A DNA stretch of 64,000 bases, taken from positions 7,182 to 71,181 of the forward strand of contig MGDH01000016.1 of assembly GCA_001790855.1 (NCBI GenBank), in the 5' to 3' direction. Below the pieces are notes generated by a model that was not told where the DNA came from, ran no database searches, and was given only the letters and a program-made list of their open reading frames with translations. Shown piece after piece: positions 29,860 through 57,022 of the stretch. This stretch comes from Candidatus Schekmanbacteria bacterium RIFCSPLOWO2_02_FULL_38_14. GTDB lineage: Bacteria > Schekmanbacteria > GWA2-38-11. How positions within the stretch are numbered: the first letter of the stretch is position 1; each line of letters opens with the position of its first letter. Position numbers and translations under genes: made by a program.

Positions 29860-30750
29860 TCACCCAGATAACTCTATATGTTTTACAACTACATTTCTAA
29901 TCCCCGCAGGATCCAGACCCACATGACGCCGAACCTCGTTCAATGTACCATACCAGCAACAGAAGTCGTCCGGCAGCAGGCCATGATAGGCCGTCTGAAG
30001 GTTGGGCACTTCGTTAACAGCCTCGTAGAGACCAAGCGCATCGTGCACTACAAGGATCTTCGTCTTAGAAAATTCAGTGAGGATCTCCTTGTCGATTGGT
30101 TTTATGGTGTGAAAATAAATAAGGTTCACATTCAAATCCTTGCATGCTTCAAGTACATTGACCAAAATCGGACCCGCGGTCATCACCGTCACGTTTGAAC
30201 AGGCTCTCTTTAGAACCACACCCTTGCCAAATTCCACGGAATAATCATTAATTAAGTGGGGATGATCCGAAAGCCTTATGTAGGATGGCTTTCCTCTCCG
30301 GTATTGGCTCCGCAACAAAATATTAAGTTCTCTTGTCGAGCCGGGTTGAATAACTTCCATACCAGGCAGGAGCCGCAAAATCGCCAAATCCGTATATGAG
30401 TGGTGGGATGCCCCGTCCCAAGCATAATCGAACGTCGCCCCACATGAAACAATATTGACACCGAAGCGGTTATAACACACATCCAGCTTTATCTGCTCAT
30501 AGCTCCTCTCTGTTATAAATGGCGCTATTGTATGAACAAAAGGGAAAAAACCTTGCGAGCTCAAACCAGCAGAAACACTTATAAGCGTGTTCTCACAAAT
30601 ACCCATATTGTAAAATCTATCAGGATATCTGTCCTTAAAATCCTTGAAGAGATAAACACTCACATCTCCTAGTATCAAAACCACTCTATCATCTTGCCTG
30701 GCCAAATCTAAAACTGTTTCTTTAAATTGTTTCCTCACACAGCTCTCCAA
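29860..30750 (-). CDS. Transketolase-like C-terminal subunit (split transketolase 1, beta part)
   Basis: The pyrimidine-binding and C-terminal domains of a transketolase as a separate 296-aa protein. The Glu that activates the TPP pyrimidine is in YNMGICENTLISVSAGL; VHTIAPFITERSYEQIKLD and GASHHSYTDLAIL follow the family. The start codon is a TTG at 30750 or the GTG at 30738, both overlapping the stop of the alpha part, so coupled translation is certain. With the upstream subunit it should form a TPP enzyme that moves two-carbon ketol units. It has a paralogue at 50165. Confidence 0.85.
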   Translation of the reverse strand: MESCVRKQFKETVLDLARQDDRVVLILGDVSVYLFKDFKDRYPDRFYNMGICENTLISVSAGLSSQGFFPFVHTIAPFITERSYEQIKLDVCYNRFGVNIVSCGATFDYAWDGASHHSYTDLAILRLLPGMEVIQPGSTRELNILLRSQYRRGKPSYIRLSDHPHLINDYSVEFGKGVVLKRACSNVTVMTAGPILVNVLEACKDLNVNLIYFHTIKPIDKEILTEFSKTKILVVHDALGLYEAVNEVPNLQTAYHGLLPDDFCCWYGTLNEVRRHVGLDPAGIRNVVVKHIELSG

Positions 30751-31504
30751 TTAAATTTTCAAGCTCTTGATCATTTGGCGACCTTCTATGCCATTCATAT
30801 TGATTCTCGATTAGCGTTCTGCAACCAAAACCCTTTTTAGTATCAGCAACAATAACTCTGACCGTGTCGCTTTTCTTTGTTATTTCTTTTTTTAATTTGT
30901 CTATATCGTGACCGTTAACTTCAACAACTTCACAACCAAAACTTTTAAATCTTTCGGCAGGATTGGTTATTTGCAGTCCCCTACTGTGAGACATGTTATT
31001 GTCATATATAATAGTAAGGTTATCGAGTTTCAGATGAGAGGCAACCATAACCGCCTCCCATACAGATCCTTCATTAGATTCACCATCGCCGATAAGTACA
31101 AACACCTTCCTATTTTCACCTTTTATTCTAATTGCAAGCGCTATCCCAACAGCAATACCTATTCCATGTCCCAAAGAACCTGTTGATGCCTCTATGCCTG
31201 GCACTTTAAGCCTATCTGCATGACATCCTAAATCCGACATGAAAGATCCGAAAGTCTCCACCCTCTTTTTATCAAAGTAACCGAATTCTGCCAAAACACA
31301 ATAATGAGCAAGTGCCGCGTGCCCCTTGCTTAAAATAAATATATCTCTTTCTTTCCACGACGGATTTTTAGGATCGTGTTTTATCGTACTATAAATCGTA
31401 TATAGTATCTCTATAATAGAGAAACAGGTAGGGATGTGCCCATGACCACTTAATTGAGCAATTCTCAAAATATCTTTTCTGATTTTTTTACAAATAGGCT
31501 TCAT
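30722..31504 (-). CDS. Transketolase-like N-terminal subunit (split transketolase 1, alpha part)
   Basis: The 260-aa TPP-binding domain of a transketolase. The active-site SKGHAALAHY, the GSLGHGIGIAVG loop, and the diphosphate/Mg site GDGESNEGSVWEA followed by DNN about 28 residues later are all intact. Its first ATG overlaps the stop of the methyltransferase gene by four bases; its end overlaps the partner subunit by 29 bases. Because the organism will have its own full transketolase for central metabolism, a dedicated role in making or branching a glycan sugar is likely. Confidence 0.87.
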   Translation of the reverse strand: MKPICKKIRKDILRIAQLSGHGHIPTCFSIIEILYTIYSTIKHDPKNPSWKERDIFILSKGHAALAHYCVLAEFGYFDKKRVETFGSFMSDLGCHADRLKVPGIEASTGSLGHGIGIAVGIALAIRIKGENRKVFVLIGDGESNEGSVWEAVMVASHLKLDNLTIIYDNNMSHSRGLQITNPAERFKSFGCEVVEVNGHDIDKLKKEITKKSDTVRVIVADTKKGFGCRTLIENQYEWHRRSPNDQELENLIGELCEETI

Positions 31505-32259
31505 TCTATTTTCAAGTACGATACTCTTGAAGTCATTGGAAGTCTTTGAATTCTCACGTTATTTAATCCTAACACCTCTTTAAGTGCTATTGTCTCTCCA
31601 GGAAAGATATCATCACATAATTCATCAAACACAAGAATGCTCCCTTTGCACAAATAGGGTTTAATGGCTTCCAATGCAACTTTGGTAGGTGCATAGATAT
31701 CAAAGTCCAGAACGGCCAAAGAAATGATAGTTTCCGGGTGTTTCTTAAAATATTCTGGTAGAGTTTCTCTAATATCTCCCTTTACAATTTCATATCTCTT
31801 TAAATGAGACATCGGGTTCAACTGTTCTTGCATGTATAAAACTTTACCGAGGTAATCTTCATAACCATGCGCTACCGAAAAAGAACCGTCCTTACATTTG
31901 CAAAGTTCACCATCCTTTTCAGACATTCCTCTAAAACCCTCAAATGTATCAAAACCCACAATTTTCCTATGCCTGTTAAATGGCTCGAACACCCCCCTCA
32001 AAGCAGACATGATTGATAATGTCTGACCCCATCTGACTCCAAATTCTACAACTATACCATGAGTATGGATAATCTTTTTATAAATTTCATAAAAGAATAG
32101 TATTCTTGACAGATTCTTAGATGTCAGAAACAATCCCAGGTTAGGCAACAGTTCATCATCAGGAAGCGGAGCAGACTTAAGTTGTTCTACAAACTGTTTT
32201 AAAACTGCCTTCTCATCCGAGTTGGATAAAATTATTGCATCGTGTTTTTCTGTTTTCAT
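31501..32259 (-). CDS. TylF/MycF-family sugar O-methyltransferase
   Basis: About 252 aa. The SAM-binding part HGIVVEFGVRWGQTLS with GFDTFEGF, and the metal-site text AVLDFDIYAPTKVALE and SILVFDELCDD, match the TylF/MycF macrocin O-methyltransferase family, which needs Mg and methylates sugar hydroxyls. I start at the ATG at 32259 with GGAAGG eight bases upstream; a GTG at 32268 is the alternative. It precedes the first transketolase pair and follows a sugar SDR, so it probably decorates the same unusual sugar. Confidence 0.8.
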   Translation of the reverse strand: MKTEKHDAIILSNSDEKAVLKQFVEQLKSAPLPDDELLPNLGLFLTSKNLSRILFFYEIYKKIIHTHGIVVEFGVRWGQTLSIMSALRGVFEPFNRHRKIVGFDTFEGFRGMSEKDGELCKCKDGSFSVAHGYEDYLGKVLYMQEQLNPMSHLKRYEIVKGDIRETLPEYFKKHPETIISLAVLDFDIYAPTKVALEAIKPYLCKGSILVFDELCDDIFPGETIALKEVLGLNNVRIQRLPMTSRVSYLKIE

Positions 32260-33275
32260 TTGTTCCACCTTCCTTTATTTTCAAACCACCATTCGGTGGT
32301 TTTCCTTATTCCCTCCTCGACAGTATTTTGTGCCTGCCAACCAAGAGTGTTTTTTATCTTTGTACAATCAAGCGCCCTGAAATTCATAGTTGTGGGTTTG
32401 TCTTGAATGTATTTTACTTCTTTTGGTGTATGTCCTGCATATTTCAAAGCCAGATTAACAACCTCACCAACCGAGACTTTTACTCCAGAGCCAACATTGA
32501 AAACATCGAATTTAACATTACCATTGTCTAACATCATTACAATCGCTCTTGCAAAATCATCTGAATAAATAACATCCCTGATGACATCAGGACTTCCCCA
32601 TACTTCGAAAGGGTCCATCTTATCAATGGCTTTACGAATAATTGCTGGAATAAAATTAGAGGTCTTCGGGTCAAATTTAGCATAAGGACCAAAAATATTT
32701 GCTACCCGGGCCACAACTATTTCCATACCATTTTGCTCATATAAAAATTTGCATAGTTTTTCGATAAACCTAACTACCCATCCAAATCCCAGATAAGCCT
32801 GATTGGGATCCTTGTTCAAATCAAGTTCATCCTCTTTTATACTCCCTTCGAACTCCTGATATAAAGTTGCAGAACCAATATAAATTACCCGTTTAATATT
32901 TTCCAGCTGAAATGCTTCTATCATCTGTGTATTCATCAATAAATTTTCTTTAATATGCCTCCACGGGAATGATCTTATTATGCCTGCCCCACCTGTATAT
33001 GCGGCTGCCATAACTGCACAATCACATCCACTAGCCATCCTCTTGCAATCCTCTAGAGAAGTTAGATCACCATCCACATAATCCACACGCTCATTTTTAA
33101 TAAAAGGTCTCGTATTCTTATAATATGAGGCACGGACTTTGGCTCCAGGATAATTATTAAGGATATGCACCAAAATGCTGGTGCCCGCCATCCCAGTCGC
33201 ACCTGCCAAAAAAATTAATTTCTCATTTAACGTAGATCTGTTTTTTTGCAATTTCACAAGATTGCTATTTTTCAA
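32256..33275 (-). CDS. NAD-dependent epimerase/dehydratase-like protein (FGWVV variant)
   Basis: A 339-aa extended SDR: FLAGATGMAGTSILVHIL loop, VANIFGPYAKFDPKTSNFIP and RDVIYSDDFARAIV. At the YxxxK position it reads FGWVV (in LGFGWVVRFIE), so both the Tyr and Lys of the normal catalytic pair are gone, the strongest deviation of the three GW-type SDRs here. The start is uncertain: a TTG at 33275, overlapping the upstream gene by 11 bases, or the GTG at 33257. It may bind NAD and the sugar nucleotide without classical SDR catalysis, or use other residues. Confidence 0.75.
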   Translation of the reverse strand: MKNSNLVKLQKNRSTLNEKLIFLAGATGMAGTSILVHILNNYPGAKVRASYYKNTRPFIKNERVDYVDGDLTSLEDCKRMASGCDCAVMAAAYTGGAGIIRSFPWRHIKENLLMNTQMIEAFQLENIKRVIYIGSATLYQEFEGSIKEDELDLNKDPNQAYLGFGWVVRFIEKLCKFLYEQNGMEIVVARVANIFGPYAKFDPKTSNFIPAIIRKAIDKMDPFEVWGSPDVIRDVIYSDDFARAIVMMLDNGNVKFDVFNVGSGVKVSVGEVVNLALKYAGHTPKEVKYIQDKPTTMNFRALDCTKIKNTLGWQAQNTVEEGIRKTTEWWFENKGRWNK

Positions 33276-34257
33276 TCGTTAGTGCTTTCCATGGACAACG
33301 AGACAACTCCTCTTTCCAATACACCAACATATCTTGGAGGGTTTTTTCAAAAGGTATTTCCGGCTTCCATCCTGTTTCATTTTTGAATTTGTCTATACAA
33401 GGTATCTGCAATGTCACATCAGAAGGCCTCAACAGTTTGGAGTTAACCTTAACCTCAATCCTTACCTTAGAAAGTGACAATAAAATATCCAAAGCCTCCC
33501 CAATCATCATTGTCCTATCACCGCCTATATTATAGACCTCACCGGGCTTACACCTGTTTATTAAAATCCAATATGCCCTCACCGCATCTCTCACGTCACA
33601 GAAAGTTCTCACGGATTTTAAGTTCCCAACATATACAACCGGTTTGCTAAGTCCTAATTCAGCAGCTGCAACCTGCTTGGCAAATGACGACATGGCAAAA
33701 ACATCACCTCTCCTTGGCCCTGTATGAGTAAACATTCTAGTGCGTATATTTTTAATTCCGTAAGATACAAAGTACTGAAAGGCTATCATATCTTCTCCGA
33801 CTTTGCTTACTGCATATGGCGAAGCCGGCTTAAACGGGCATGTTTCTTTAATTGGAACATCTGCCTCATTTACCTGGCCATAGACTTCTGAAGACGAACA
33901 TATATGAACAACTGGATTAATTTCCGTTATCCTAACGGCCTCGAGCAGATTTGTTGTCCCTATAACGTTCACCCATAGAGTGTGAACAGGAGAGTTAAAA
34001 CTGGTCAAAACATAACTCTGCGCCGCTAAATGAAAAATAACCTCAGGTTGAACAACCTTAAGATGTCGAATCAGAGCGCCCAAATCACAAAGATCAGCCT
34101 CAAGTGGAGTTACTTTATTGTATATTTTTTCAAGATTATCCTTTGGGCTTCTCCACCTGCATAATCCATAGACTTCATGATTTTCATTTAGATTAAGTAT
34201 ATATTCTGCAAGATGACTCCCCACAAAACCTGTTATTCCTGTAATCAATATTTTCAT
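33265..34257 (-). CDS. GDP-mannose 4,6-dehydratase-like enzyme (1)
   Basis: A 330-aa extended SDR of the GMD type. Motifs: ITGITGFVGSHLAEYIL, FHLAAQSYVLTSF, CSSSEVYG with the Glu kept, and the YAVSK catalytic pair. RMFTHTGPRRGDVFAMSSF is the GMD signature region. It would create a GDP-4-keto-6-deoxy sugar. As HddA/HddC-like genes lie in the same locus, GDP-manno-heptose is as likely a substrate as GDP-mannose. A second gene of this type is at 53876. Confidence 0.82.
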   Translation of the reverse strand: MKILITGITGFVGSHLAEYILNLNENHEVYGLCRWRSPKDNLEKIYNKVTPLEADLCDLGALIRHLKVVQPEVIFHLAAQSYVLTSFNSPVHTLWVNVIGTTNLLEAVRITEINPVVHICSSSEVYGQVNEADVPIKETCPFKPASPYAVSKVGEDMIAFQYFVSYGIKNIRTRMFTHTGPRRGDVFAMSSFAKQVAAAELGLSKPVVYVGNLKSVRTFCDVRDAVRAYWILINRCKPGEVYNIGGDRTMMIGEALDILLSLSKVRIEVKVNSKLLRPSDVTLQIPCIDKFKNETGWKPEIPFEKTLQDMLVYWKEELSRCPWKALTIEK

Positions 34258-39405: not shown

Positions 39406-40635
39406 CTAATTTTTACTATTCATCTTAACCCTAGCTGATGGATGCCCATATTTATTACGAGCTTTTTCTAAAACTGTACTGCACCACTTATTCCGATCAA
39501 GTTTGGAATAAAGTGCCTTAAACTCATTTAACAAGAGTTCTGGTGTTACCAAAATCTGGGTACTAAACATTTTTTGTCTATCTGTTGCAAACGAAAAATT
39601 TTCCCCAGATTTCAATTCAAGTCTATGTAAACACCATTCTGGGAATTTGAATATCAAATAAGGAAGGTCACTAAACTGCGCAATAGTATTAACCCCAGAT
39701 GATGTACCCATATACATTAAAGATGTGCGAATCAAAGCAAGGTCTTCTATTATAGATGTCCCAAAATCTTTTGCGATAATTACATTCGACCTTTTTCTCA
39801 GGCCATCAAAAGTTTCCTCCCGTAATCCAACAAATACAAAAACAACTTCCGGAAAATCTATTTTACACTGATCTATGAATGACAACCAAACCACAGGATT
39901 AGTGTTCCGTTCAGAAGCATGCGATGTTTGTTTTAAAGATAATGTTACAGGTACTGTATTCTCTGGCAAATAATTCAGGTAGAACCAATGTGCCCAAAAT
40001 CCATCCCTATCACCAATTCTAAGATATGGTATATATCCATGCGAATTATAAAAATCTTGTACCTCATTAAAGTTGGGGAATCCATAATCAGCATAATTAT
40101 ATGTTTCGCCTAAGTGATGAGCCAACGGTGGGAACATGTCATAGCGTTCAACATTACTTTTCAAGAAATGATAAAATTCTTTACGAGAATTAAATTGGAA
40201 AATTGATCCAAGATATGGACATGTACTAAACAATGGAAGGAATTCAAGCATATAGTCTTGCGCATTATCAGATGTAATATTATTATCTTCGGCTTTTTTA
40301 CGGTTGCCAATTGGGTTATCACTATCATATATAACACAAATATCAACTTCTTCTGCATTATATTTAATTTTCAAAATGCTTAATCTTTCAATGAAAAGTA
40401 AGGGATCTCCAACTGACCATGGAAGGGCTTTGAAGTCCCAAACTCCCAAAATACGTTTCTTTTGAAAGTTTGGTGCGAAAATTAGTTTCATCAAATTATA
40501 ATAAAACCTGACTTTTATTGGCCATAGACCCAGCCTCAACCAAAAACTATATAATTTATCAGTTATTATCTTACATGTAGTAAGAACACCGTGCTTACGA
40601 ATTTTGCGATATATATCTATACCCTTTTGAAACAT
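39406..40635 (-). CDS. TIGR04372-like putative glycosyltransferase (paralogue A)
   Basis: A 409-aa protein without a well-known domain that I can name surely. Conserved blocks are RILGVWDFKALPWSVGDPL (near 68), FIPYL-like YIPYLRIGDRDGFWAHWF, NVIIAKDFGTSIIEDLALI and YMGTSSGVNTIAQFSDLPYL near the C-terminus. The last two resemble the donor-binding half of GT-B transferases in the TIGR04372 group. It shares all blocks with the gene at 48407, so the two are diverged paralogues. A role in glycan assembly is supported by context only. Confidence 0.6.
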   Translation of the reverse strand: MFQKGIDIYRKIRKHGVLTTCKIITDKLYSFWLRLGLWPIKVRFYYNLMKLIFAPNFQKKRILGVWDFKALPWSVGDPLLFIERLSILKIKYNAEEVDICVIYDSDNPIGNRKKAEDNNITSDNAQDYMLEFLPLFSTCPYLGSIFQFNSRKEFYHFLKSNVERYDMFPPLAHHLGETYNYADYGFPNFNEVQDFYNSHGYIPYLRIGDRDGFWAHWFYLNYLPENTVPVTLSLKQTSHASERNTNPVVWLSFIDQCKIDFPEVVFVFVGLREETFDGLRKRSNVIIAKDFGTSIIEDLALIRTSLMYMGTSSGVNTIAQFSDLPYLIFKFPEWCLHRLELKSGENFSFATDRQKMFSTQILVTPELLLNEFKALYSKLDRNKWCSTVLEKARNKYGHPSARVKMNSKN

Positions 40636-44354: not shown

Positions 44355-45401
44355 TTATTCTCCAGACATATTAATCAATGCCCTTCCTGCCTTACCCTGC
44401 TCCAAATCATCAAAGGCACTATTTATATCTTCCAACCTATACTCATTAGTATTGAGAGCATCGAGTCTAAGCTTGCCAGCAAGATACATGTTGACATACA
44501 ATGGAATATCTCGATCCATTTGAGTCTCCCCTCCCCATGTTCCAATAATTTTCTTGCCTTTGATAAGATCAAATGGATCAATTAATATCTTTTCACCCAG
44601 TGGTAGATTGCCAGCCAGAACACACAGACCGCCATTATTGCGAACTGATCGAAAAGCAGTTTCCATGGACTCCTTCTTACCAGCAGACTCAATCGCATAA
44701 TCAATACCACGATTACCTGTAATGTCCATTATTCCTGATAAGACATCCTGATTTCTTGCATTAATTATATGTGTTGCTCCCAACTGAATAGCCTGTTCAA
44801 GTTTATGATCAAGTACATCTATGGCAATAATTAAGGAAGCATTTGCTATTTTAGCTGCTAATAAAGCACTTAAACCAATACCACCAACTCCAAATACAGC
44901 AACACTAGTACTAGGTTTTACACGTGCTGTATTCATAACAATTCCTGCACCTGTAGGAATAGCACAACCAAGAAGAGCAGCTTCACGTAAAGGCATTTTA
45001 TCAGGAATTTTTACAACACGATTTTCTGAAATAACAGCCTTTGTCAGAAATGTAGATATCGCACCGGAATTTACTATTGAGCCATTGCTTCTCTTGTATA
45101 AAGCAGACGGAACATCAGCACCCATGCCTTTTATCCATGTCAGCACAACATGGTCTCCCGGCTTTACCTTTTTAACACTGCTCCCAACATTTTCAACAAC
45201 CCCTGAACCTTCATGTCCTAAGGTATGGGGAAGAAATTTGTCTTCACCTTTTAACCCATGAACCTCATTAAGTTGAGAGTGACATACTCCACTATAAGCA
45301 ATCTTAACTAGAACCTGTCCTGCTTTGAGTTCAGGAATTGTAAGCTCTTCAATCTGTAAGGGATTATTAATTTTGTTCAAAACTGCTGCTAAGGTTTTCA
45401 T
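44355..45401 (-). CDS. Zinc-type alcohol dehydrogenase lacking the structural zinc loop
   Basis: A 348-aa medium-chain dehydrogenase. The catalytic zinc ligands are visible (GVCHSQ, then GHEGSGVVE) and the NAD loop is VAVFGVGGIGLSALLA. The loop that normally carries four Cys for the structural zinc is replaced by GMGADVPSALYKRSNGS, with no Cys. It resembles class III-type enzymes in size. It could oxidise or reduce a sugar alcohol or aldehyde in the glycan path. The next gene upstream is a Nudix hydrolase. Confidence 0.82.
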   Translation of the reverse strand: MKTLAAVLNKINNPLQIEELTIPELKAGQVLVKIAYSGVCHSQLNEVHGLKGEDKFLPHTLGHEGSGVVENVGSSVKKVKPGDHVVLTWIKGMGADVPSALYKRSNGSIVNSGAISTFLTKAVISENRVVKIPDKMPLREAALLGCAIPTGAGIVMNTARVKPSTSVAVFGVGGIGLSALLAAKIANASLIIAIDVLDHKLEQAIQLGATHIINARNQDVLSGIMDITGNRGIDYAIESAGKKESMETAFRSVRNNGGLCVLAGNLPLGEKILIDPFDLIKGKKIIGTWGGETQMDRDIPLYVNMYLAGKLRLDALNTNEYRLEDINSAFDDLEQGKAGRALINMSGE

Positions 45402-45942: not shown

Positions 45943-46599
45943 TTAATCCGCTATGAACCACCAATAATCTCCAGTGTATCCCACCTCATCAAATAATTTT
46001 TTCCAGTCATCAACATGCATCATAGTCTCAGCAGTAAGCACCCATTTGAAAAGATTCTCCCGCTCGGTCTCATTTCGCCATGCATCAACAGTAATATAGC
46101 TATTGCCTCTGCAAACACGCTGGATTTCACGAAGTGCCTCTTTAAGGCGCTGAAGAGGAAGGTTATGGATAGAGTTAATGGAGATGACTAAATCAAAGCT
46201 CTTATCAGGATAAGGTAATTTTTCTGCACTCCAGATTTTCAGAAACGGTTTAACTGAAGGCATTGCATTCTCAATAGCATAAGAACTTACATCTATTCCA
46301 GCAACAATACAGCCAGGTATCAACTCTTTGAAGTCATGCAACATAAAGCCTTTTCCACACCCAATATCCAGAATAGCGGCATTCTCAGGCAAATTATAAT
46401 AATCCTTCATACGCTTTACAACAGACTTCCATCTGCCGTCGTATTTATATCCCCCATAACCGCATTTCCGGTCACCATCAAAAAAATCCTTTCCAAACTG
46501 TTTAGCAATGCGGACAATCTCAGGAGTTTTCTCCTGTGCACGCTTATCATAATCCCGTACAGTTTTTGGATGCGTATCAAGCAAATTAATCTCTTTCAT
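45943..46599 (-). CDS. Class I SAM-dependent methyltransferase
   Basis: A 218-aa methyltransferase. Motif I is AAILDIGCGKGFMLHDF near residue 75; motif II-like acidic GIDVSSYAIENA follows; FDLVISINSIHNLPL is motif post-I/IV. Before the core is a longer N-terminal part (YDKRAQEKTPEIVRI, YGGYKYDGRW) that is specific to this subgroup. Which glycan intermediate it methylates is not evident. It is 20 bases downstream of a classical SDR gene. Confidence 0.82.
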   Translation of the reverse strand: MKEINLLDTHPKTVRDYDKRAQEKTPEIVRIAKQFGKDFFDGDRKCGYGGYKYDGRWKSVVKRMKDYYNLPENAAILDIGCGKGFMLHDFKELIPGCIVAGIDVSSYAIENAMPSVKPFLKIWSAEKLPYPDKSFDLVISINSIHNLPLQRLKEALREIQRVCRGNSYITVDAWRNETERENLFKWVLTAETMMHVDDWKKLFDEVGYTGDYWWFIAD

Positions 46600-47619: not shown

Positions 47620-48432
47620 TTATTCTTTTTTTTCAAACCGAAAAACAAGGCTGCTTTGTTCCTGCAATGTAAGACCCCCATCAATTATTATACACTGTCC
47701 ATTAATAAAAGATGACTCTGAAGAACAGAGGAATAATACCAAATTTGCAACATCATCAGAACAACCTATATGTCCCGATGGGTGAATAAAATTAACCATT
47801 TCTCTATAGTTCTTATTATTATCTTGGTCATAACGAGCTTTATGTTCATCCCGTACGATAAAGCCAGGCAAAATTGTATTTACACGAACCCCAAATTTGC
47901 CTGTATGCATAGCAAGGTAACGCGTCATTTGCAGCATCCCTGCCTTTGCAATATGATATACAGGTGATTCATGACAAGCTAATAATGCTGCAACGGAACT
48001 AATGTTAATGATATTCCCTCCTCCTTTTTCTGACATAACTCGGCATGCTTCTTGAGAAGCAAAAAATGCTGCTCTCAATGTAACAGATATTCCTTTTTCC
48101 CAAGAATTTTCATCCTCTTCAAAGAAAGATGTGCGCTGTCCTGAACGTGCATTATTTACTAAAATATCCAATTTACCATATCGCTGAACAACTTGTCGTA
48201 CCATATCATAAGGAGCTCCTTTTAGACTTAAATCAACATGAAAAAAACTTGCCGATATTTTTCTGTCAATAAGTTCCATTTCAGTTTTTTTCCCGTTTTC
48301 CAAGTCAATATCGCAAATTGCAACATGTGCACCTTCCTGTCCAAATGCTCGTGCTATATTTTTCCCAATTCCTGTTGCACTACCAGTAATTAGCGCTACT
48401 TTATTTTCAAAACGTTTTTTTCCCATACTCAT
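47620..48432 (-). CDS. Classical SDR oxidoreductase (2)
   Basis: About 270 aa. Cofactor loop TGSATGIGKNIA, NNARSG, catalytic Ser in NISSVAA and YHIAK as the catalytic pair. The frame opens at 48504, but that would add 24 residues of non-SDR text overlapping the upstream gene by 98 bases, so I favour the ATG at 48432 (or 48426). The protein ends with a Phe/Lys-rich tail. It is likely to act on a sugar or polyol intermediate. Confidence 0.82.
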   Translation of the reverse strand: MSMGKKRFENKVALITGSATGIGKNIARAFGQEGAHVAICDIDLENGKKTEMELIDRKISASFFHVDLSLKGAPYDMVRQVVQRYGKLDILVNNARSGQRTSFFEEDENSWEKGISVTLRAAFFASQEACRVMSEKGGGNIINISSVAALLACHESPVYHIAKAGMLQMTRYLAMHTGKFGVRVNTILPGFIVRDEHKARYDQDNNKNYREMVNFIHPSGHIGCSDDVANLVLFLCSSESSFINGQCIIIDGGLTLQEQSSLVFRFEKKE

Positions 48433-49462
48433 TTTTATGTAACTGCAATTTTTCTTGCTTCGTCTCCCAATAATGTTCATTAACATTATTATATAAAAAA
48501 TCAAAATTAGATAAAATGTTCTCCTGAGTCTCTATAGCTCTCAAAACTTTCTGCAATGAAGTTGCAAAAGAATATCTATCTTCCCTCCCCAGTTCTAAAT
48601 GCATTTTTTCAGCATGATGATCCGGATTTTTATAAATAATATATGGGACATCGCTGAATAGTGCCATCTGACAAGGCCCACTTGTCATTCCCATGAAAAT
48701 GCAAGCTGTTTGAATTAAAGCCAAATCCCGAGAAAGGTTGCTTCCAAAATCTCTTGCCAATAATACGTTAGGAATATTGTGTATTCTCTTATCTATTTTT
48801 TCGTTGCCAATAAGGATAAACTTGGCATTATAACGTACATTACAGGTTTCAAAAAAAGCAATCCAGGCATCAAAATTTGCATTACTGCAATTTTGTTCTT
48901 CCGGATTATTTTTCAAATGAATGACTACCGGTATACTTGGAAACACATTGCTTTGCAAAAAATTAATCGCCCAATCTAAAAGTCCTATCCTGCAGGAAAG
49001 GTAGGGTATAAATGAATAATTTTGGAAAAACTTCTGTACAGTAAAGGTATTGTCACAATTATAGTTCAGTATCTCTTGTTCATTCGCTGAAGGCCATAAA
49101 ATATACTCACATGATGCATCAGAAATAAAATTCTGCAAAATTCTAAAAGAATCGCACTGATAATATAAATTTATATTGTCTATATCAAGGAGTGTGGTTA
49201 TTATTATAGATTTATTACAACACTCTTTGCCCAATACTCTAAGCAAACCATCCTTTCCGCATACTTCATTCCCAGATAATATTTTAGATCCATCTCCTAT
49301 AAAACACAAATCAATGTATTCAGCCTTATGAATTAGCTGCTGTATTCTTAGTTCTTCAAGAAAAATCAGCAAACATCCCAAACTGAGTCTATCCCCTCGA
49401 AGATTCCAAACCCCTAAAATTCTTCTTTGCATGTCTGTTTTAACAATCTTATTAGTAATCAT
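48407..49462 (-). CDS. TIGR04372-like putative glycosyltransferase (paralogue B)
   Basis: A 351-aa protein with the same blocks as the gene at 39406: RILGVWNLRGDRLSLGCLL, YSFIPYLSCRIGLLDWAI, NVLLARDFGSNLSRDLALI and FMGMTSGPCQMALFSDVPY. It lacks about 55 residues at the N-terminus of paralogue A; the start may be the ATG at 49432. The late blocks suggest a GT-B-type donor site. Two diverged copies in one locus suggest two successive linkages, or one transfer per parallel repeat-unit branch. Confidence 0.6.
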   Translation of the reverse strand: MITNKIVKTDMQRRILGVWNLRGDRLSLGCLLIFLEELRIQQLIHKAEYIDLCFIGDGSKILSGNEVCGKDGLLRVLGKECCNKSIIITTLLDIDNINLYYQCDSFRILQNFISDASCEYILWPSANEQEILNYNCDNTFTVQKFFQNYSFIPYLSCRIGLLDWAINFLQSNVFPSIPVVIHLKNNPEEQNCSNANFDAWIAFFETCNVRYNAKFILIGNEKIDKRIHNIPNVLLARDFGSNLSRDLALIQTACIFMGMTSGPCQMALFSDVPYIIYKNPDHHAEKMHLELGREDRYSFATSLQKVLRAIETQENILSNFDFLYNNVNEHYWETKQEKLQLHKNEYGKKTF

Positions 49463-50154: not shown

Positions 50155-50164
50155 AAAATTTTCC

Positions 50165-51097
50165 TCACATATGTTTTTTAAAATTATTTTGTATAACTCT
50201 TATTATCCCATCTGATGAAAGACCCGCCTGTGAACAGAGTTCCTCGTAAGTGCCATAGTCATGCATAAACGAATCAATGGCAATTGAGCTAAACTGCATA
50301 CCTTTAATATTATAAACTCCCTGTAAAATATCATGCCCCAATCCACCAAAACGATTGTGCTCCTCTACTACAAGAACTTTTTTAGTCTTCTCAACACTTT
50401 CATATATTAATGGTAAGTCCAAAGGCAATATAGTATGAACATAAATTATCTCAACATCCCATCCCTTGCCTGAAAGTTTATTTCTTGCTTCTATAGCATT
50501 TTTAAGCTGTGGCCCTGTAGCAACAAGAGTAATATCTTTTCCTTCAGTAATTTTAATAGCCTTGCCAAATTTTATTAAAAAAGGATCTATTAATTGCTCA
50601 TGCTGAACCTCAGGTATTCTAAACAAGGTTAAATAGCTGTTGTTGTATGTTTGCTTGAAAAGTATATCAAATTCAGCACATGAGCTAGGATATACAACCT
50701 GTGTATTAGGAAGAGATTTAATCAATGCAAAATCATCATAACAATGATGTGTACATCCGAGGTTTGAATAATCAAATGCACTCCCAACTGATATAAGATT
50801 TCCGTTCAGCTTTTGATAACAAAAATCTAACTTAATTTGCTCAAATGATCTCTCAAGAATAAATGGCGCAATTGTATGCACAACAGGATAAAAACCGGTT
50901 TTTGCAAGTCCGGCTGCCATACTGACAATAGTTGGTTCACATATTCCCACATTATAAAATCTGCCGGGGCAAGCTTTTGCAAATGGCTGTAAAATAAAAT
51001 GGCTAATATCACCTATCAAAACTACCAAGTTGGGATCGCTTTGCCCTACTTCCAACATTGTATCTGCAAACTGTTGCCGTATTTTTTTTAGCTTCAA
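50165..51097 (-). CDS. Transketolase-like C-terminal subunit (split transketolase 2, beta part)
   Basis: A 310-aa paralogue of the gene at 29860. The TPP-activating Glu is in YNVGICEPTIVSMAAGLA, and VHTIAPFILERSFEQIKLD, GCTHHCYDDFALI are shared with it almost word for word. The C-terminal domain (VLVVEEHNRFGGLGHDI) is complete. It overlaps the alpha part by four bases. Pair 2 is upstream of a methyltransferase and downstream of a classical SDR, so the neighbours differ from pair 1. Confidence 0.87.
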   Translation of the reverse strand: MKLKKIRQQFADTMLEVGQSDPNLVVLIGDISHFILQPFAKACPGRFYNVGICEPTIVSMAAGLAKTGFYPVVHTIAPFILERSFEQIKLDFCYQKLNGNLISVGSAFDYSNLGCTHHCYDDFALIKSLPNTQVVYPSSCAEFDILFKQTYNNSYLTLFRIPEVQHEQLIDPFLIKFGKAIKITEGKDITLVATGPQLKNAIEARNKLSGKGWDVEIIYVHTILPLDLPLIYESVEKTKKVLVVEEHNRFGGLGHDILQGVYNIKGMQFSSIAIDSFMHDYGTYEELCSQAGLSSDGIIRVIQNNFKKHM

Positions 51098-51867
51098 GAG
51101 AGTGCCTCCATAATTATTTTATATTCATCTTCATTTGGAATCTTGTGGTGCCATATCCCATGCCCTTCAAGCATAGGAACACCCTTTCCCTTAATGGTCT
51201 TTGCAATTATCACGATTGGTGCACCATTAACACAAAAATTTATATTTGATAAGGCAGATTTGATCTCTGCTTCCGAATGCCCATCTATTACAATTGTGGT
51301 CCAGCCAAATGCCTTCCATTTCGAAGGAAAATCATCACGAGGCATTAACTGTGCGGCAGAACCGTTCCAGTCCACCATAACACATAGATTTCCTAACTGA
51401 AGATTATTTGCAACATTAGCAGCTTCCCAAATAGTGCCTTCATGACACTCTCCATCTCCAACAAGAACAAACACTCTGTTAGATTTGCCACGAATACGAA
51501 GTCCTAAAGCAATGCCAACAGCAAAAGAAAAACCGTGGCCAAGAGAACCTGTAGATGCCTCGATTCCCGGAATTTTGGTGCAATCAGGATGCTCACCCAA
51601 TATCCCTCCTGGTTTGCAAAACATATTAAGGTCATCTTCTGTAATAAACCCACAACTTTTAAGGACTACATACAGAGCAAGACACCCATGACCTTTACTT
51701 AAAATAAAATAATCACGATCTTCCCAATCAGGATTTTCAGGATCAAATCTAAGATAGTTTTTGTATAAAATGGCTATTATATCAACAATAGAAAATGCAC
51801 TTGGAATATGACCATCCTTTCCCTTTCTAACCATTTCAACAATCCGTTTGCGATATTCCTCATGCAT
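51094..51867 (-). CDS. Transketolase-like N-terminal subunit (split transketolase 2, alpha part)
   Basis: A 257-aa TPP-binding subunit, paralogue of the gene at 30722. SKGHGCLALYVVL, GSLGHGFSFAVGIALGL and the TPP/Mg site GDGECHEGTIWEA followed by DWNG are intact. Like pair 1 it has no fused C-terminal half; the next gene supplies it. It starts 30 bases downstream of the SDR gene at 51897. Confidence 0.88.
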   Translation of the reverse strand: MHEEYRKRIVEMVRKGKDGHIPSAFSIVDIIAILYKNYLRFDPENPDWEDRDYFILSKGHGCLALYVVLKSCGFITEDDLNMFCKPGGILGEHPDCTKIPGIEASTGSLGHGFSFAVGIALGLRIRGKSNRVFVLVGDGECHEGTIWEAANVANNLQLGNLCVMVDWNGSAAQLMPRDDFPSKWKAFGWTTIVIDGHSEAEIKSALSNINFCVNGAPIVIIAKTIKGKGVPMLEGHGIWHHKIPNEDEYKIIMEALS

Positions 51868-51896: not shown

Positions 51897-52673
51897 CTAT
51901 TGCCCAAAATAACCTCTTCCCTGTCCTCCATCTATAGGAATAATGCTTCCCGTATTAAAAGAAGCTAATTCAGAACAAAGAAATGTGACAAAGTTTCCAA
52001 TTTCTTCAGGTTGACCAAAACGCCCAATGCGCTGCCTTTCAGTCAGAAATTTTTTGACATGTTCAGGATTTTCTTTTAAGGTTATATCCCAATATCCCTT
52101 CTCTGTGAAAACCGCACCTGGAAGCACGGCAGAAACTACGACTCCATCTGGAGCAACGACACCGCCAAAACTTCTTGTATACGCTGTCAAGGCAGCTTTT
52201 ATTGCACAATAAGTTACAGGGCCATGGTTTTCCATCGAAGAAATAGAAGAAATGTGAACTACACGCCCCCACTTCTTTTTTTGCATATTTGGAACAAGAA
52301 GTATGTTTAATTCTACTGCAACTTCAAAATTGAAACGATATATACGTCTCCAATCCTGAATAGAACAAAAAGGATCCTTTATATCAAGTGTACCACCAAG
52401 ATTATGTACCAATATAGATGGCTTTCCAAAGTCCTTATTAAGTATTTTAACAAGTTCTGCAGGACCGGTATCATCGGTCAGGTCAAGTGTTATTCCTAAA
52501 TGTCCCTTAACTTTTCCACCTATTTCATCTATCAAGCTTTCTACATCAGCAGAAGTCCTTGAAACAACGGCAACACGCGATCCTTCCCTTGCAAGACATT
52601 GTGCTATAGCCCGCCCAATACCACGACCTCCGCCAGTTACTAAAGCTAACCGGCCAAAAATTCCTAAATTCAA
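51897..52673 (-). CDS. Classical SDR oxidoreductase (3)
   Basis: A 258-aa short-chain dehydrogenase: TGGGRGIGRAIA cofactor loop, HNLGG at beta-4, catalytic Ser in HISSISS and YCAIK as the catalytic pair. The C-terminus ends PIDGGQGRGYFGQ. It precedes the second split transketolase by 30 bases, and a reduction of the ketose product would be a natural link. Substrate not readable. Confidence 0.85.
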   Translation of the reverse strand: MNLGIFGRLALVTGGGRGIGRAIAQCLAREGSRVAVVSRTSADVESLIDEIGGKVKGHLGITLDLTDDTGPAELVKILNKDFGKPSILVHNLGGTLDIKDPFCSIQDWRRIYRFNFEVAVELNILLVPNMQKKKWGRVVHISSISSMENHGPVTYCAIKAALTAYTRSFGGVVAPDGVVVSAVLPGAVFTEKGYWDITLKENPEHVKKFLTERQRIGRFGQPEEIGNFVTFLCSELASFNTGSIIPIDGGQGRGYFGQ

Positions 52674-52689
52674 AATAATCTCCTTAATA

Positions 52690-53892
52690 TCAAATTATAT
52701 GTAAAGGATAGATAATATGCTTAGGTCTGAATGCAAATAGTTTAGTCATTATAGGTTTAATATTATCAATCGCAGTAACAAAAATAGTTAACCCATTAGT
52801 ATTTTCAATTTTATTTGAATGTTGAACTTGAACCGGAAGGTTAGCATAAAACAAATCATCTTTTTCTTTGTCATCATCAATGACTGCTTTCAAAAACGAA
52901 AGGTCAGTTTTTAAATGATATGCTAAAACCGGAAGCATCAGAGCAGCACCATACCCGTATATATGGGTGTTCTTGAATTCAAATAATATTTTTCTCGTAT
53001 TATCCATTTGGCTGAAAAACAGGTTTCTCTTGCGTTCAATATCTTCTTTTGCAAAAGGGAATTTAAAGCGTTTTTGTTTTGAAGTCTTTTTTCTAAAAGC
53101 AACAATTAAAGCACCCCAATTGTGATAATTTTCAGTAAAACCTATTAACTCAGCTCCGCATTTTTCTAAAAGAACACTGAGCGAGCTTAAACTAAAGTAT
53201 TGTAAATGTTCATGAAAAACCTGATCAAACCTTCCTTTTGTTATCAAAGATTCAAATCCTGGCATTTCAAAAAGGAAAAGTGTATTTGCGGTGGAACAAT
53301 CAATCAGTTTTTTTAAAACAGTTTGAGGGTCAAAAATATGTTCAAGAGTATGCCTGCACACAATTAGATCAGGCTTACAGGGAAGGGCTTTTTCTAAATC
53401 AATGTCTTCAAGTGCCCCTCCTATAACGTGTAAATTTTGGTCATCATTATCTGGTTTTTTTGAAGTCCATATAGGATCAATTCCTATCCTTGTCTTTCCA
53501 AAGGATTTCATTTTATTTAGTAAATATAAATCATTACATCCCACATCAATAATGCACTCAATTTTTTTGTTTGGAATAAGAGTTTTTAAATAATCAAGAA
53601 ATATTTCAGTCCCATGTTGCGCGGTTGTACTTAAAGAAGTTCTGAAAGTATATTTCTGAGAATCATAAAGTATTTCAGGATTAATCTGATTTCGAAGTTG
53701 ACCATGTCCGCATTCCGGACACCATAACAAAGCTTGATCAAACCCTTCTGAAAAATCAGCATGCTTTTTTTTTGAAAACAAACCAGTAATTGGCAATTCC
53801 GGCATACTCATAATCTCAATGAGATTTTCATTATTGCAAACTGCACACCACGATCTTTTACATACAATTATATCTTCATGCTTTATGGACAT
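52690..53892 (-). CDS. Sugar C-methyltransferase (zinc-binding, TylCIII/NovU-like)
   Basis: About 400 aa in three domains. The N-terminal zinc-binding domain has WCAVCNN and WCPECGHGQL. The SAM core has CIIDVGCNDLYLLNKM and FEMPGFESLI. The C-terminal Methyltransf_14-like domain has IYGYGAALMLPVLAYHL. This layout is that of C-methyltransferases acting on NDP-4-keto sugars. I start at the ATG at 53892, which has AAGGAG ten bases upstream; the frame is open to 54096 but that part overlaps the next gene and looks non-family. C-methylation makes a branched sugar. Confidence 0.82.
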   Translation of the reverse strand: MSIKHEDIIVCKRSWCAVCNNENLIEIMSMPELPITGLFSKKKHADFSEGFDQALLWCPECGHGQLRNQINPEILYDSQKYTFRTSLSTTAQHGTEIFLDYLKTLIPNKKIECIIDVGCNDLYLLNKMKSFGKTRIGIDPIWTSKKPDNDDQNLHVIGGALEDIDLEKALPCKPDLIVCRHTLEHIFDPQTVLKKLIDCSTANTLFLFEMPGFESLITKGRFDQVFHEHLQYFSLSSLSVLLEKCGAELIGFTENYHNWGALIVAFRKKTSKQKRFKFPFAKEDIERKRNLFFSQMDNTRKILFEFKNTHIYGYGAALMLPVLAYHLKTDLSFLKAVIDDDKEKDDLFYANLPVQVQHSNKIENTNGLTIFVTAIDNIKPIMTKLFAFRPKHIIYPLHII

Positions 53893-54874
53893 AATCGAGC
53901 GGCTCCTTTTTAATCTGCTCCCAATCATTCTCAACCCATTTGACAACGCCAGCCAAACCCTCTTCCATAGAGATAGTTGGTTTCCATTCAAATTCTTTTC
54001 TCGCTTTACCAGAATCAATAACATAGGCAGCATCCTGCCCAAGCCTCTCAGCAACTGTTTTTGTTGCCTTATTAAAATCGAGTCCCATTTTTTCACAAAT
54101 AATACGCACTACATCCCTTACAGCAATCCCTTGATCCGGAGACAGGTGGTAGATTTCACCTGTTCTTCCTTTTTCCATCGCAGCAAGTTCCCCGATTGAA
54201 ATATCTCTTATATGGATATAAGACTTGACTGCTTTGCCACCACCGTGAAGCTCAATAATCTTTCCTAACTTTAAATAAATTGCTGACCTTGGAATAATTT
54301 TAAATAATTGCTGGTGCGCACCATATACATTGGTAGAACGGATCATTACCATTGGAAATCCAAAGTTCTTCACAAAAGTAAAAAGTGACAAATCCCCTGC
54401 AGCCTTAGATGCTGCATAAGGAGTACTGGAATTTAGCGGAGCGTCTTCTTTTACAATTCCTACGCAGGTGCCATATACTTCAGGAGAAGAAATATGAACA
54501 TACCGTCTAAGAAATTTACGGTCTTTTAAAGCGTGTGCTAATTCAGTAATTGAAACTGCATTTGTTTGAAACCACTGGCCAGGATTTTCCCAACTCGGAG
54601 CTACCTCGCTTTGTGCAGCAAAATTCACTACAAAGTCGGGTTTAAAAGAATCAACCAGATTGATAACCTGAGACATACCTTTATTCAAATCCATCTTATA
54701 AAATTTAAAGTCCGGGTTCTTGCTCTTCTTGTAAGGTAAAAACAAAGCACTTTTCTCCGGTGACCTGCTGATACCTGCAACCGAGTATCCTCCCTTTTCC
54801 AGCAACAAATCTATAAAATCGCTACCCGAAAAAGAGTTACTGCCTATTACTATAACTTTCTGTTTACTTTGCAT
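53876..54874 (-). CDS. GDP-mannose 4,6-dehydratase-like enzyme (2)
   Basis: A 332-aa extended SDR: IVIGSNSFSGSDFIDLL loop, VNFAAQSEVAPSW, SSPEVYG, and YAASK as the catalytic pair. RSTNVYGAHQQLFKIIPRS is the GMD-like region. It would make a 4-keto-6-deoxy NDP-sugar. It precedes the C-methyltransferase gene with a 17-base overlap; dehydratase followed by C-methyltransferase is the classical order for branched deoxysugars. Confidence 0.8.
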   Translation of the reverse strand: MQSKQKVIVIGSNSFSGSDFIDLLLEKGGYSVAGISRSPEKSALFLPYKKSKNPDFKFYKMDLNKGMSQVINLVDSFKPDFVVNFAAQSEVAPSWENPGQWFQTNAVSITELAHALKDRKFLRRYVHISSPEVYGTCVGIVKEDAPLNSSTPYAASKAAGDLSLFTFVKNFGFPMVMIRSTNVYGAHQQLFKIIPRSAIYLKLGKIIELHGGGKAVKSYIHIRDISIGELAAMEKGRTGEIYHLSPDQGIAVRDVVRIICEKMGLDFNKATKTVAERLGQDAAYVIDSGKARKEFEWKPTISMEEGLAGVVKWVENDWEQIKKEPLDYVHKA

Positions 54875-54905
54875 TATTCACCTTGGTACTCTTGAACATT
54901 AGAAG

Positions 54906-54952
54906 TGAGGTAATAAGAAATGGGAACCCATTTCTCACTTCCCATTACCTCA
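54906..54952. repeat. Nested hairpin in the gap between E1-beta and the GMD-like gene
   Basis: An outer stem TGAGGTAAT (54906-54914) / ATTACCTCA (54944-54952) encloses a nine-base inner stem AGAAATGGG (54916-54924) / CCCATTTCT (54927-54935). It fills half of the 106-base gap. It has no U-run on either side, so it is not a standard terminator. It may attenuate or process the transcript between the E1 pair and the genes downstream of it. Confidence 0.6.
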
Positions 54953-54980
54953 TTTCAATATAGCCTATATGGAGCATTTT

Positions 54981-56039
54981 TTAAAAAGGACCGGTAAATG
55001 ATCTGTCCGGAACATCCAGAGGGGTATCATGAAAAATTCCGAGTTCTTCTTCACTCCGCAAGGGAAGTCCAAACATCTTTCCGGCTGCATTGACAATATC
55101 AACAGATTTAGGATAATAATGATTTGCCAGTGCCCAACTTGTTGGAGTTGGAACGTCCGGAAATGTCACACGGGAAGGAGCAGATTTCAGATAGCTATGC
55201 GCCTTTTCACATACAAATGCTATTATTTCGGCAGAAACACCAAAGCTGCGCCATGCACCATCTACTACCAAAAGATGGCCAGTTCTCCTAACAGAGTCTA
55301 AAATTAATTCTTCGTCCATGGGTTTAATCGTTCTCAAATCTATAACGTCGGAGTTGATTCCGCCTTTGGCAAGAATATCTGCTGCTTTTAATGCCTCTAA
55401 AGACATGTACGATGAAGCAACGATTGTTATTGAATTCCCTTCTCGCATTTTTTTTGCTTTGCCTATAGGAACGCGATACATCTCCTCTGGAACATGACCA
55501 AATATATTATGCAACCAGCGGTGTTCGAGATAAATAACCGGGTTATCATCTTCAATTGCTGCTATCAATAAACCTTTAGCATCATATGGCGTAGTCGGCA
55601 TCACAACCTTCAACCCGGGAATATGCGCAAAAATAGACTGCAGGCTCTGCGAGTGCTGTGGCCCCTGACCCCAACCCCTCCCAATAATCAAACGGATTAC
55701 CAAAGGTACTTTCATCTTTCCACCAAACATATAGTGCCATTTTGCTGCATTATTGATGATTTGATCCAATGATAAGAGCATAAAATCAATACGCTGGTGG
55801 GTAATAATTGGCCGCATCCCTACCAGAGATGAACCTATCGCAACCCCTGTCATTCCATTCTCTGCAACGGGCATATCCATTACCCTTTTACTGCCAAACT
55901 TTTTTTCAAGACCAATGGTGGTTCCAAATATTCCTTTGGGATCAGTAACACCAAGGCCCATAATATAGACAGAAGGGGCATTTTCCAGACACTGGCTTGT
56001 GGCCTCAAGAATTGCCTGTGCGTAATTAAGTTCCCGCAT
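54981..56039 (-). CDS. Dehydrogenase E1 component beta subunit (TPP-dependent)
   Basis: A 352-aa pyrimidine-domain subunit of the pyruvate/acetoin/2-oxoisovalerate dehydrogenase E1 family: MDMPVAENGMTGVAIGSSLV with the TPP-activating Glu, RIDFMLLSLDQIINNAAKW, and YLEHRWLHN. The start overlaps the stop of the alpha gene by one base. No E2 acyltransferase or E3 is present, so decarboxylation with transfer of the two-carbon unit to something other than lipoamide, such as a sugar, is plausible. Confidence 0.85.
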   Translation of the reverse strand: MRELNYAQAILEATSQCLENAPSVYIMGLGVTDPKGIFGTTIGLEKKFGSKRVMDMPVAENGMTGVAIGSSLVGMRPIITHQRIDFMLLSLDQIINNAAKWHYMFGGKMKVPLVIRLIIGRGWGQGPQHSQSLQSIFAHIPGLKVVMPTTPYDAKGLLIAAIEDDNPVIYLEHRWLHNIFGHVPEEMYRVPIGKAKKMREGNSITIVASSYMSLEALKAADILAKGGINSDVIDLRTIKPMDEELILDSVRRTGHLLVVDGAWRSFGVSAEIIAFVCEKAHSYLKSAPSRVTFPDVPTPTSWALANHYYPKSVDIVNAAGKMFGLPLRSEEELGIFHDTPLDVPDRSFTGPF

Positions 56040-57022
56040 TATCTTAATTCGTCCCCAGCATAAACATCAGAATAAATTTGATTAATCTCAGGGAAAGGGC
56101 TCTCCTTAGCAAAATTAATCGCCGCATCAATTTCCGATCTAATCTTTTGCCTGAACTCTTTAATCTGCTGCTGAAGAAGAATTCCCTCCTGAAGTAAACG
56201 CTTTTCAAAGTTTTCCACAGGGCATTTCTGGTACCATTCCATAAACTCTTCTTCCGACCGATAGCCCAAATTATTATCATAATTAGGTCCGCAGTGCTCG
56301 CGAAACCTATATGTATCAAACTCAATAAAGGAGGGCCCTAAACATTTGCGGGCATGTTCAATGGCTTTCCCAGCAATATGATCTACTACCTCTACATCAT
56401 TACCATCCCCCTTTTCACTGTATATACCAAATGCCCTTGCAATAGATAAATTATCACGTTCTTCTGGCTGACGAACTGAAAGCGGCGAATATACAGAATA
56501 AAAGTTGTTCTCACAAACAAAAACAACCGGCAATTTTTTCAAGGCAGCAAAGTTTAAACTCTCACAAAACACCCCTTCCTCTGTAGCGGCGTCTCCCAAA
56601 AAAACAACTGTAACTCTATTTTCTCCTTTCATAACTGTTCCAAAAGCAACTCCTACAGCAACCGGAATAATTCCTCCTACTATAGGGGTCGATCCCAAAT
56701 AATTTACTTCAAGATCTACAAGATGCATAGAACCTCCTTTGCCTTTTGTACAACCAGTGGCTTTGCCTAATATTTCCGCCATCATCGCTCTAAGACTGCC
56801 TCCTTTGGCAAGAAAGTGGCCATGACTCCTGTGGTTACTCATTACATAGTCTTCTTTTCTAAGATTTGCACAGACACCCGCGGCTATGGCTTCCTGGCCT
56901 GAGCAGAGATGGACTGGACAACGCATCTGTTGTTCAGGATATAACTCTACAATGGTTTCCTCCACCATGCGGATTTTTAACATATTATAATAAAGCTCTA
57001 ACTTTTTTTCTTTAATAATCAT
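56039..57022 (-). CDS. Dehydrogenase E1 component alpha subunit (TPP-dependent)
   Basis: A 327-aa E1-alpha: RMVEETIVELYPEQQMRCPV, SNHRSHGHFLAKGG with the active-site His pair, and the TPP site GDAATEEGVFCESLNFA followed by ENNFYSVYSP. HCGPNYDNNLGYRSEEE is the usual C-terminal Glu/Tyr region. It is coupled to the beta subunit gene. The third TPP system of the locus, of a different type from the split transketolases. Confidence 0.88.
   Translation of the reverse strand: MIIKEKKLELYYNMLKIRMVEETIVELYPEQQMRCPVHLCSGQEAIAAGVCANLRKEDYVMSNHRSHGHFLAKGGSLRAMMAEILGKATGCTKGKGGSMHLVDLEVNYLGSTPIVGGIIPVAVGVAFGTVMKGENRVTVVFLGDAATEEGVFCESLNFAALKKLPVVFVCENNFYSVYSPLSVRQPEERDNLSIARAFGIYSEKGDGNDVEVVDHIAGKAIEHARKCLGPSFIEFDTYRFREHCGPNYDNNLGYRSEEEFMEWYQKCPVENFEKRLLQEGILLQQQIKEFRQKIRSEIDAAINFAKESPFPEINQIYSDVYAGDELR

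Follow-up and report, generated by a model that had tools for sequence, protein, structure and literature searches.

Three thiamine-diphosphate enzyme pairs as putative carboligases of a large surface-glycan operon in a Candidatus Schekmanbacteria genome

The DNA analysed here, called the window, is a stretch of 64,000 nucleotides from Candidatus Schekmanbacteria bacterium RIFCSPLOWO2_02_FULL_38_14 (G000:C16:7182-71181; genome of 2.68 Mb, 99% complete), which carries three pairs of thiamine-diphosphate (ThDP) enzyme genes, namely two split transketolases (TK1 and TK2) and one pair of E1 alpha and E1 beta subunits. All six open reading frames (ORFs) are open at the coordinates given in Table 1, on the minus strand, and the PP, Pyr and C-terminal transketolase domains were found by Pfam each in the expected chain, the match of the C-terminal domain of TK1C being weak (20.6 bits vs a cut-off of 25.9). 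Both transketolases have the split-gene layout, with PP on one chain, Pyr and the C-terminal domain on the other, and the two genes adjacent. The single-chain layout of the decarboxylase-type enzymes (TPP_enzyme N, M and C) was absent; in each pair, E1_dh or Transketolase domains are spread over two chains. The ThDP-binding and catalytic residues are present in TK1, TK2, E1-alpha and E1-beta, including the signature GDA(A/G)...ENN in E1-alpha and the invariant E60 and H129 in E1-beta. No lipoyl-domain gene was found on the window's contig, and neither E2 nor E3 was found among the annotated neighbours of the three pairs. In all these points a first-pass annotation made from the sequence alone, which had described two split transketolases and an E1 pair with intact cofactor sites and no E2/E3, was borne out. 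The reading of the genes as pseudogene remnants was rejected, since the catalytic residues are intact and conserved.

The pairs lie in a co-directional gene run that spans 63913 down to 16530. Besides two 4,6-dehydratase-like genes, many short-chain dehydrogenases/reductases (SDRs) and a single gene bearing C-methyltransferase domains, a sugar-gene setting which the first-pass annotation had recognised, it encodes an O-antigen-ligase/polymerase-like protein, WecG-type and further glycosyltransferases, methyltransferases and B12-type radical SAM proteins. The surface-glycan locus of that annotation is thus real and co-directional, but larger than it had stated. The window end coincides with the contig end, and its final 46 bases (63955-64000) equal G000:C41:1-46. 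Since this overlap is unique to those two contig ends in the whole assembly, the operon very probably runs on into contig C41, where GmhA comes first, then a methyltransferase, and further along apparent genes for a nonulosonate synthase, a cytidylyltransferase, GMD and Fcl, as far as an RfaH-like antiterminator gene.

A genome-wide search seeded by TK2N alone returned 42 loci, 22 of which hold close TK2 relatives (53-78% identity). These come from the Pseudomonadota, Nitrospirota, Chloroflexota, Omnitrophota, Verrucomicrobiota, Bacteroidota, Lentisphaerota, Chlamydiota and Fidelibacterota, so that with the window's own phylum the module spans ten phyla. E1-alpha and/or E1-beta lies on the same fragment in 19 of the 22 loci; in L007 the E1 is on another contig, L013 is a fragment of 5.8 kb, and only L021 is truly without E1. 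As a control, the other split transketolases of the same search (L028-L046) were inspected, and none of the 19 had an E1, GMD or methyltransferase partner. The families GMD_53876, SDR_51897, SDR_57032, MT_45943, ADH_44355 and CMT_52690 each recur in 15-19 of 23 sets, and the contiguous block GMD-MT-E1a-E1b-SDR-TKN-TKC is found in many loci from distant phyla. The pairwise distances of the transketolases track those of the E1s (Mantel r 0.64, p 0.0005, n=16), as expected if the two were inherited together, shared host ancestry contributing in part. In a quick tree of the transketolases the glycan clades were supported by values of 99-100 in the Shimodaira-Hasegawa-like approximate likelihood ratio test (SH-aLRT). 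The module is accessory, being present in 4 of 59 genomes of the genus of Alteromonas lipolytica, and a neighbour gene in the Alteromonadaceae loci reads like flagellin (by reading of the sequence, with no hidden Markov model). TK1 and TK2 were not found in other genomes of the window's phylum (four genomes, the window's own included). Thus the neighbourhood, whose conservation the first-pass annotation had set as a test of its reading, proved to be conserved across ten phyla as a set of TK2, E1 and sugar genes. Its count of three systems holds for the pairs but not for their parallel standing: E1 shares one module with TK2, and TK1 belongs to a second cassette.

The residues of the transketolases were read by alignment to E. 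coli TktA, whose numbering is used throughout. The equivalents of H26, H66, H100, D155, N185, H261, E411 and H473 are kept in TK1 and in all 22 module transketolases. In the same 22 proteins S385, H461, D469 and R520 are all replaced (S385 by Gly, Phe or Tyr, H461 by Gly, D469 by Leu and R520 by Glu, Asp, Gly or Ala), and R358 is the only residue of the sugar-phosphate site retained in all of them. S385, H461 and R520 bind the sugar phosphate, whereas D469 bears on acceptor specificity. TK1 carries S385Y, H461G and R520D with D469 unchanged. The housekeeping split transketolase of the own genome retains all four residues, and among other split transketolases S385 is kept in 22/26, H461 in 19/26, D469 in 20/26 and R520 in 22/26. 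S385, D469 and R520, replaced here in a natural clade, are also the sites mutated in the laboratory in TktA S385Y/D469T/R520Q, where the acceptor range moved from phosphorylated to non-polar and Y385 clashes with the substrate phosphate (PMC5073344). Since the phosphate-site residues are replaced, we infer that the module transketolases would not bind a phosphosugar donor or acceptor in the usual way, and the kept histidines would argue for a hydroxyacetyl donor.

The module E1s form a single clade (SH-aLRT 100) apart from the pyruvate dehydrogenase (PDH)-type E1s of the same genomes. All of the 21 module E1-betas examined end in GPF, nearly all with a preceding DxP motif, and their tail extension of about 20-35 residues is absent in 10/10 PDH E1-betas. 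The Azospirillum E1-betas likewise end in GPF and two Streptomyces plasmid E1-betas (L117:12989-15035 and L121) in GPY; the pair in L117 stands beside nonribosomal peptide synthetase/ketosynthase genes, in a neighbourhood of natural-product type. These Streptomyces plasmid E1 pairs (beta chains 49% and 46%) are among the nearest annotated relatives. Judging by these endings, the tail appears to be typical of E1-type carboligases without E2 and not just of this locus, and maybe of natural-product ones too. The E1-beta of Solidesulfovibrio magneticus has no tail. The AlphaFold2 model of the window E1-beta (pLDDT, a per-residue confidence score, of 85) matched best 1w85_B, a PDH E1-beta structure solved with the E2 binding domain, and the tail is disordered in this single-chain model. 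The C-terminus of E1-beta is presumably situated at the E2-docking face, and if so, the tail may block E2. No E1-beta match was found among viral contigs, and the matches in a phage collection, all below 43%, seem to stem from host or contaminating DNA.

The sugar precursor is most likely a heptose, a point which adds to the reading of the first-pass annotation; separate lines of evidence suggest this association with moderate strength. The window has a pair of HldE-like genes near E1, and GmhA lies immediately beyond the contig join. GmhA-type isomerases occur in 13 and HldE-like fusions of reversed domain order in 14 of the 22 module loci, with scores below the curated cut-offs of these families. 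A family of GT9-like proteins, for which Pfam matches none, recurs in about nine module loci, and its predicted fold has its best PDB matches in GT9, WaaC, WaaF and TibC (TM-score, a measure of fold similarity, of about 0.5). In L075, the sole close TK1 orthologue found (59-60%) sits among relatives of HddA, HddC-like, RmlC-like and GMD-like genes, the same set as in the window. Two genomes of Nitrospirota carry a further split transketolase some 13 kb away from the first one, with HddA, HddC-like and radical SAM relatives nearby. The locus of Azospirillum oryzae holds a PfkB kinase (PfkB/CTP), an SIS isomerase, an SDR, an E1 pair and two aminotransferases, and that of S. magneticus an HddA-like kinase, an E1 pair, an aminotransferase, a nucleotidyltransferase and an SIS isomerase.

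On balance it seems probable that the three pairs are dedicated ThDP carboligases of one large surface-glycan operon, which would extend heptose-derived nucleotide sugars by C2 units. GmhA would isomerise sedoheptulose 7-phosphate, and phosphorylation at C1 followed by nucleotidylation would yield nucleoside diphosphate (NDP)-heptoses, through the HldE-like enzymes for the E1/TK2 module and the HddA/HddC-like enzymes for the TK1 cassette. Keto intermediates would be made by the 4,6-dehydratase-like SDRs. The E1 pair, having no E2/E3, would move an acetyl unit from pyruvate onto a carbonyl of an NDP-keto sugar, and the split transketolases would use a carbonyl acceptor free of phosphate, onto which they would transfer a hydroxyacetyl (glycolaldehyde) unit. 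The new carbons would then be decorated by reductases, methyltransferases and aminotransferases, and the GT9-like glycosyltransferases would hand the product to the glycan. The substrates, the order of the steps and the choice between a branch and a chain extension are proposed here as one scheme that would fit the genes. A bolder version can be offered only tentatively: the transketolase clade without a sugar-phosphate site and the tailed E1, having evolved in step, might form a mobile module of two enzymes that attaches one C2 unit after another, two in all, to an NDP-heptose; the products would be a novel class of sugars, branched or elongated and with nine to eleven carbons, in the surface or flagellar glycans of many phyla.

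Several points weigh against this proposal. The association with heptose is weaker than that between E1 and transketolase, because glycan loci often contain heptose genes. In the module's dehydratase-like SDR family (S/T)PE stands in place of TDE, Glu and Tyr being kept and Asp replaced by Pro, and the Lys of the YxxxK motif, present in the window copy, is Arg in most relatives (often YxxSR), a pattern uncommon for a 4,6-dehydratase of normal catalysis. Since SPE/TPE replaces TDE and Arg replaces the catalytic Lys in most members, 4-keto formation by these enzymes may not be regarded as secure. The module transketolases share ancestry, so that the residue loss in 22/22 does not represent 22 independent events, and many of the module loci are contigs of metagenome-assembled genomes (MAGs). 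Moreover, E1 occurs without transketolase in Azospirillum, and transketolase without E1 in L021 of the Chlamydiae and in Solidesulfovibrio carbinolicus. Since each occurs without the other, the two enzymes need not act on one sugar.

This last point leads to an alternative that we consider rather unlikely, yet the most serious one, in which E1 and the transketolases make two or three separate sugars of one glycan with a single C2 addition each, and the usual clustering of glycan genes explains their adjacency. The A. oryzae E1 with its aminotransferases, the E1-less transketolases of L021 and L120, and the possession by TK1 of its own HddA/HddC/RmlC cassette agree with it; however, the seven-gene block in distant phyla and the correlated distances of transketolase and E1 fit one pathway better. 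Somewhat less likely still is that the carboligases lengthen the chain of an aldose or ketose at an aldehyde acceptor before activation, without NDP-keto branching, the higher sugar being activated by GmhA and the HldE-like enzyme. An isomerase, a kinase and a nucleotidyltransferase are indeed module partners, and aldehydes are the acceptors most readily used by ThDP enzymes, but the sugar-phosphate ligands of the transketolases are lost, and the dehydratase- and C-methyltransferase-like partners indicate NDP-keto sugars.

It is quite improbable that the transketolases are ordinary pentose-phosphate enzymes giving a local supply of sedoheptulose 7-phosphate for GmhA heptose synthesis. Although GmhA and the heptose kinases share the operon, the phosphate-binding S385, H461 and R520 are gone in 22/22, and all three are present in a distinct split transketolase of the own genome; this role was rejected. 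Elsewhere the own genome carries a split transketolase on C18 and a 637-amino-acid (aa) transketolase/DXS-like ORF on C22, and the module-bearing Alteromonas and Pseudoalteromonas genomes have transketolase-like ORFs of 660-700 aa alongside the split pair (full-length ones of 660-680 aa). That the E1 pair is a PDH component borrowing E2/E3 from housekeeping complexes is hardly credible and was likewise rejected: the fold as a whole speaks for it, as does an identity of 42-47% with the closer of the two PDH E1 pairs in the own genome, but the separate clade, the conserved extra tail and the lack of a lipoyl gene on the contig oppose it, as do two E1 genes elsewhere in the own genome (C4) that have lipoyl-domain (E2-type) genes close by, and the E2 catalytic domain was undetected in G004 and G006, module genomes with E1, both of them MAGs in which absence is not proof. 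Because of the housekeeping copies, the lost phosphate-binding residues and the module genomes without detectable E2, complementation of the central transketolase or PDH by the pairs appears unlikely. The dedication of the three pairs to the glycan rather than to central metabolism, as first suggested, is supported by the conservation of the module and the separate housekeeping copies.

The proposed carboligases have partial counterparts in known systems. The E1 pair resembles the alphaKADH2-type enzymes (kibdelomycin KbDH-alpha/beta and the E1-type enzyme of aldgamycin) in its alpha/beta architecture, intact ThDP site and absence of E2/E3 from the cluster, a likeness of architecture and description; unlike them, it occurs across many phyla in operons for surface glycans, accompanied by a split transketolase and genes of heptose activation. 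AviB1/AviB2 we take to be sugar-branching enzymes of the same alphaKADH2 type. YerE of yersiniose biosynthesis resembles the enzymes proposed here in its ThDP carboligation, its pyruvate donor and its acceptor, a surface polysaccharide's NDP-keto sugar; it belongs, however, to the decarboxylase superfamily, to which none of the three window pairs belongs, so that YerE, named as a precedent in the first-pass annotation, is no homologue of them. The E1-type enzymes of natural-product pathways attach pyruvate-derived acetyl to sugar ketones, and E1-type and split-transketolase branching is recognised in antibiotic pathways, as is YerE in lipopolysaccharide (PMC12247030).

The transketolases share the two-chain layout and the catalytic residues of the split-gene transketolase of Carboxydothermus hydrogenoformans (6YAK/6YAJ; PMC7661550), their best solved-structure match (2.7e-64 for TK2N and 1.5e-42 for TK2C), but differ in the replaced phosphate-site residues, the glycan-operon setting and the duplication in one locus. 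The split transketolases proposed for miharamycin and amipurimycin, compared by description, are from Streptomyces and serve small-molecule products, not surface glycans. The laboratory TktA variant (5HHT; PMC5073344) is changed at the same three positions as the module, and S385Y is identical in TK1; it arose by directed evolution, whereas in the natural enzymes H461 is lost as well, position 469 is Leu in the module and remains Asp in TK1, and position 520 is Glu, Asp, Gly or Ala. No report of a paired E1 and split-transketolase module in surface glycans, or of split transketolases in polysaccharide loci, was found in the literature, which was covered in part. If the proposal is true, C-C bond formation on activated sugars by transketolase- and E1-type enzymes, so far found mainly in antibiotic pathways (PMC12247030), would be a widespread means of surface-glycan diversification, and a heptose-derived sugar class yet to be identified would be predicted in module-bearing strains. 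No ketone-accepting transketolase has been characterised (PMC12247030), and the module clade, with active sites resembling the laboratory-evolved enzyme, offers candidates from cultured bacteria, among whose module carriers are Alteromonas lipolytica and Marisediminitalea aggregata.

Table 1. Coordinates of the ThDP enzyme genes and associated features in the window
Feature	Position	Strand	Remarks
E1-beta-type subunit, Pyr and transketolase C-terminal domains	54981..56039	-	Pfam; C-terminal tail DVPDRSFTGPF
E1-alpha-type ThDP-binding subunit	56039..57022	-	Pfam E1_dh 219 bits; REHCGP where PDH has the HGHS stretch
TK2C, split transketolase Pyr and C-terminal chain	50165..51097	-	S385F/H461G/D469L/R520E
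TK2N, split transketolase ThDP-binding chain	51094..51867	-	
TK1C, second split transketolase Pyr and C-terminal chain	29860..30750	-	S385Y/H461G/R520D, D469 kept
TK1N, second split transketolase ThDP-binding chain	30722..31504	-	59% orthologue in L075
4,6-dehydratase-like SDR	53876..54874	-	Catalytic Glu kept, TDE to SPE; conserved beside E1
C-methyltransferase-type gene	52690..54096	-	Methyltransf_13/23, weak Methyltransf_14; conserved in 15 loci
SDR reductase adjoining TK2	51897..52673	-	Conserved in 18 loci
Module SDR, epimerase/reductase-like	57032..58072	-	Without the dehydratase Glu; 16 loci
Module S-adenosylmethionine-dependent methyltransferase	45943..46599	-	Conserved in 19 loci
Module zinc alcohol dehydrogenase	44355..45401	-	Conserved in 18 loci
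HldE-like protein	58073..59605	-	Domains reversed: nucleotidyltransferase, then PfkB kinase
HldE C-domain-like nucleotidyltransferase	59602..60108	-	
GSU2086-family (deoxyhypusine-synthase-like) protein	60105..61127	-	Beside the HldE-like genes; 377.9 bits, cut-off 250
GT9-like (heptosyltransferase-fold) protein	48407..49462	-	Family recurs with the module
Second GT9-like family member	39406..40635	-	
GDP-mannose-4,6-dehydratase-like enzyme, TK1 cassette	33265..34257	-	52% relative in L075
HddA-like GHMP kinase (heptose-7-phosphate kinase type)	21933..22931	-	57% in L075 and L076
HddC-like sugar-1-phosphate nucleotidyltransferase	21212..21925	-	
RmlC-like 3,5-epimerase, TK1 cassette	23873..24391	-	66% in L075
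B12-binding radical SAM protein beside TK1	28204..29751	-	Relatives beside transketolase in L075-L077

Since the ORF of the C-methyltransferase-type gene overlaps the preceding gene, the gene itself probably begins at about 53876. A PDB search with the module methyltransferase returned generic methyltransferases only. The stretch 61469-63913 at the window end encodes two further SDRs along with a TIM-barrel protein that is xylose-isomerase-like (L-ribulose-5-phosphate 3-epimerase-like). The plasmid pDCAR1 of S. carbinolicus (L120) holds a glycan locus in which PseB/PseC occur together with two split transketolases, of which the second pair shows the signature S385G/H461G/D469L and adjoins a relative of the module methyltransferase. 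Four radical SAM proteins are encoded in the glycan operon of the window (25439-26617, 28204-29751, 37854-39242 and 42186-44285), one of them MiaB-like and the others of B12 type by Pfam or by reading, and their relatives also adjoin transketolases in other genomes.

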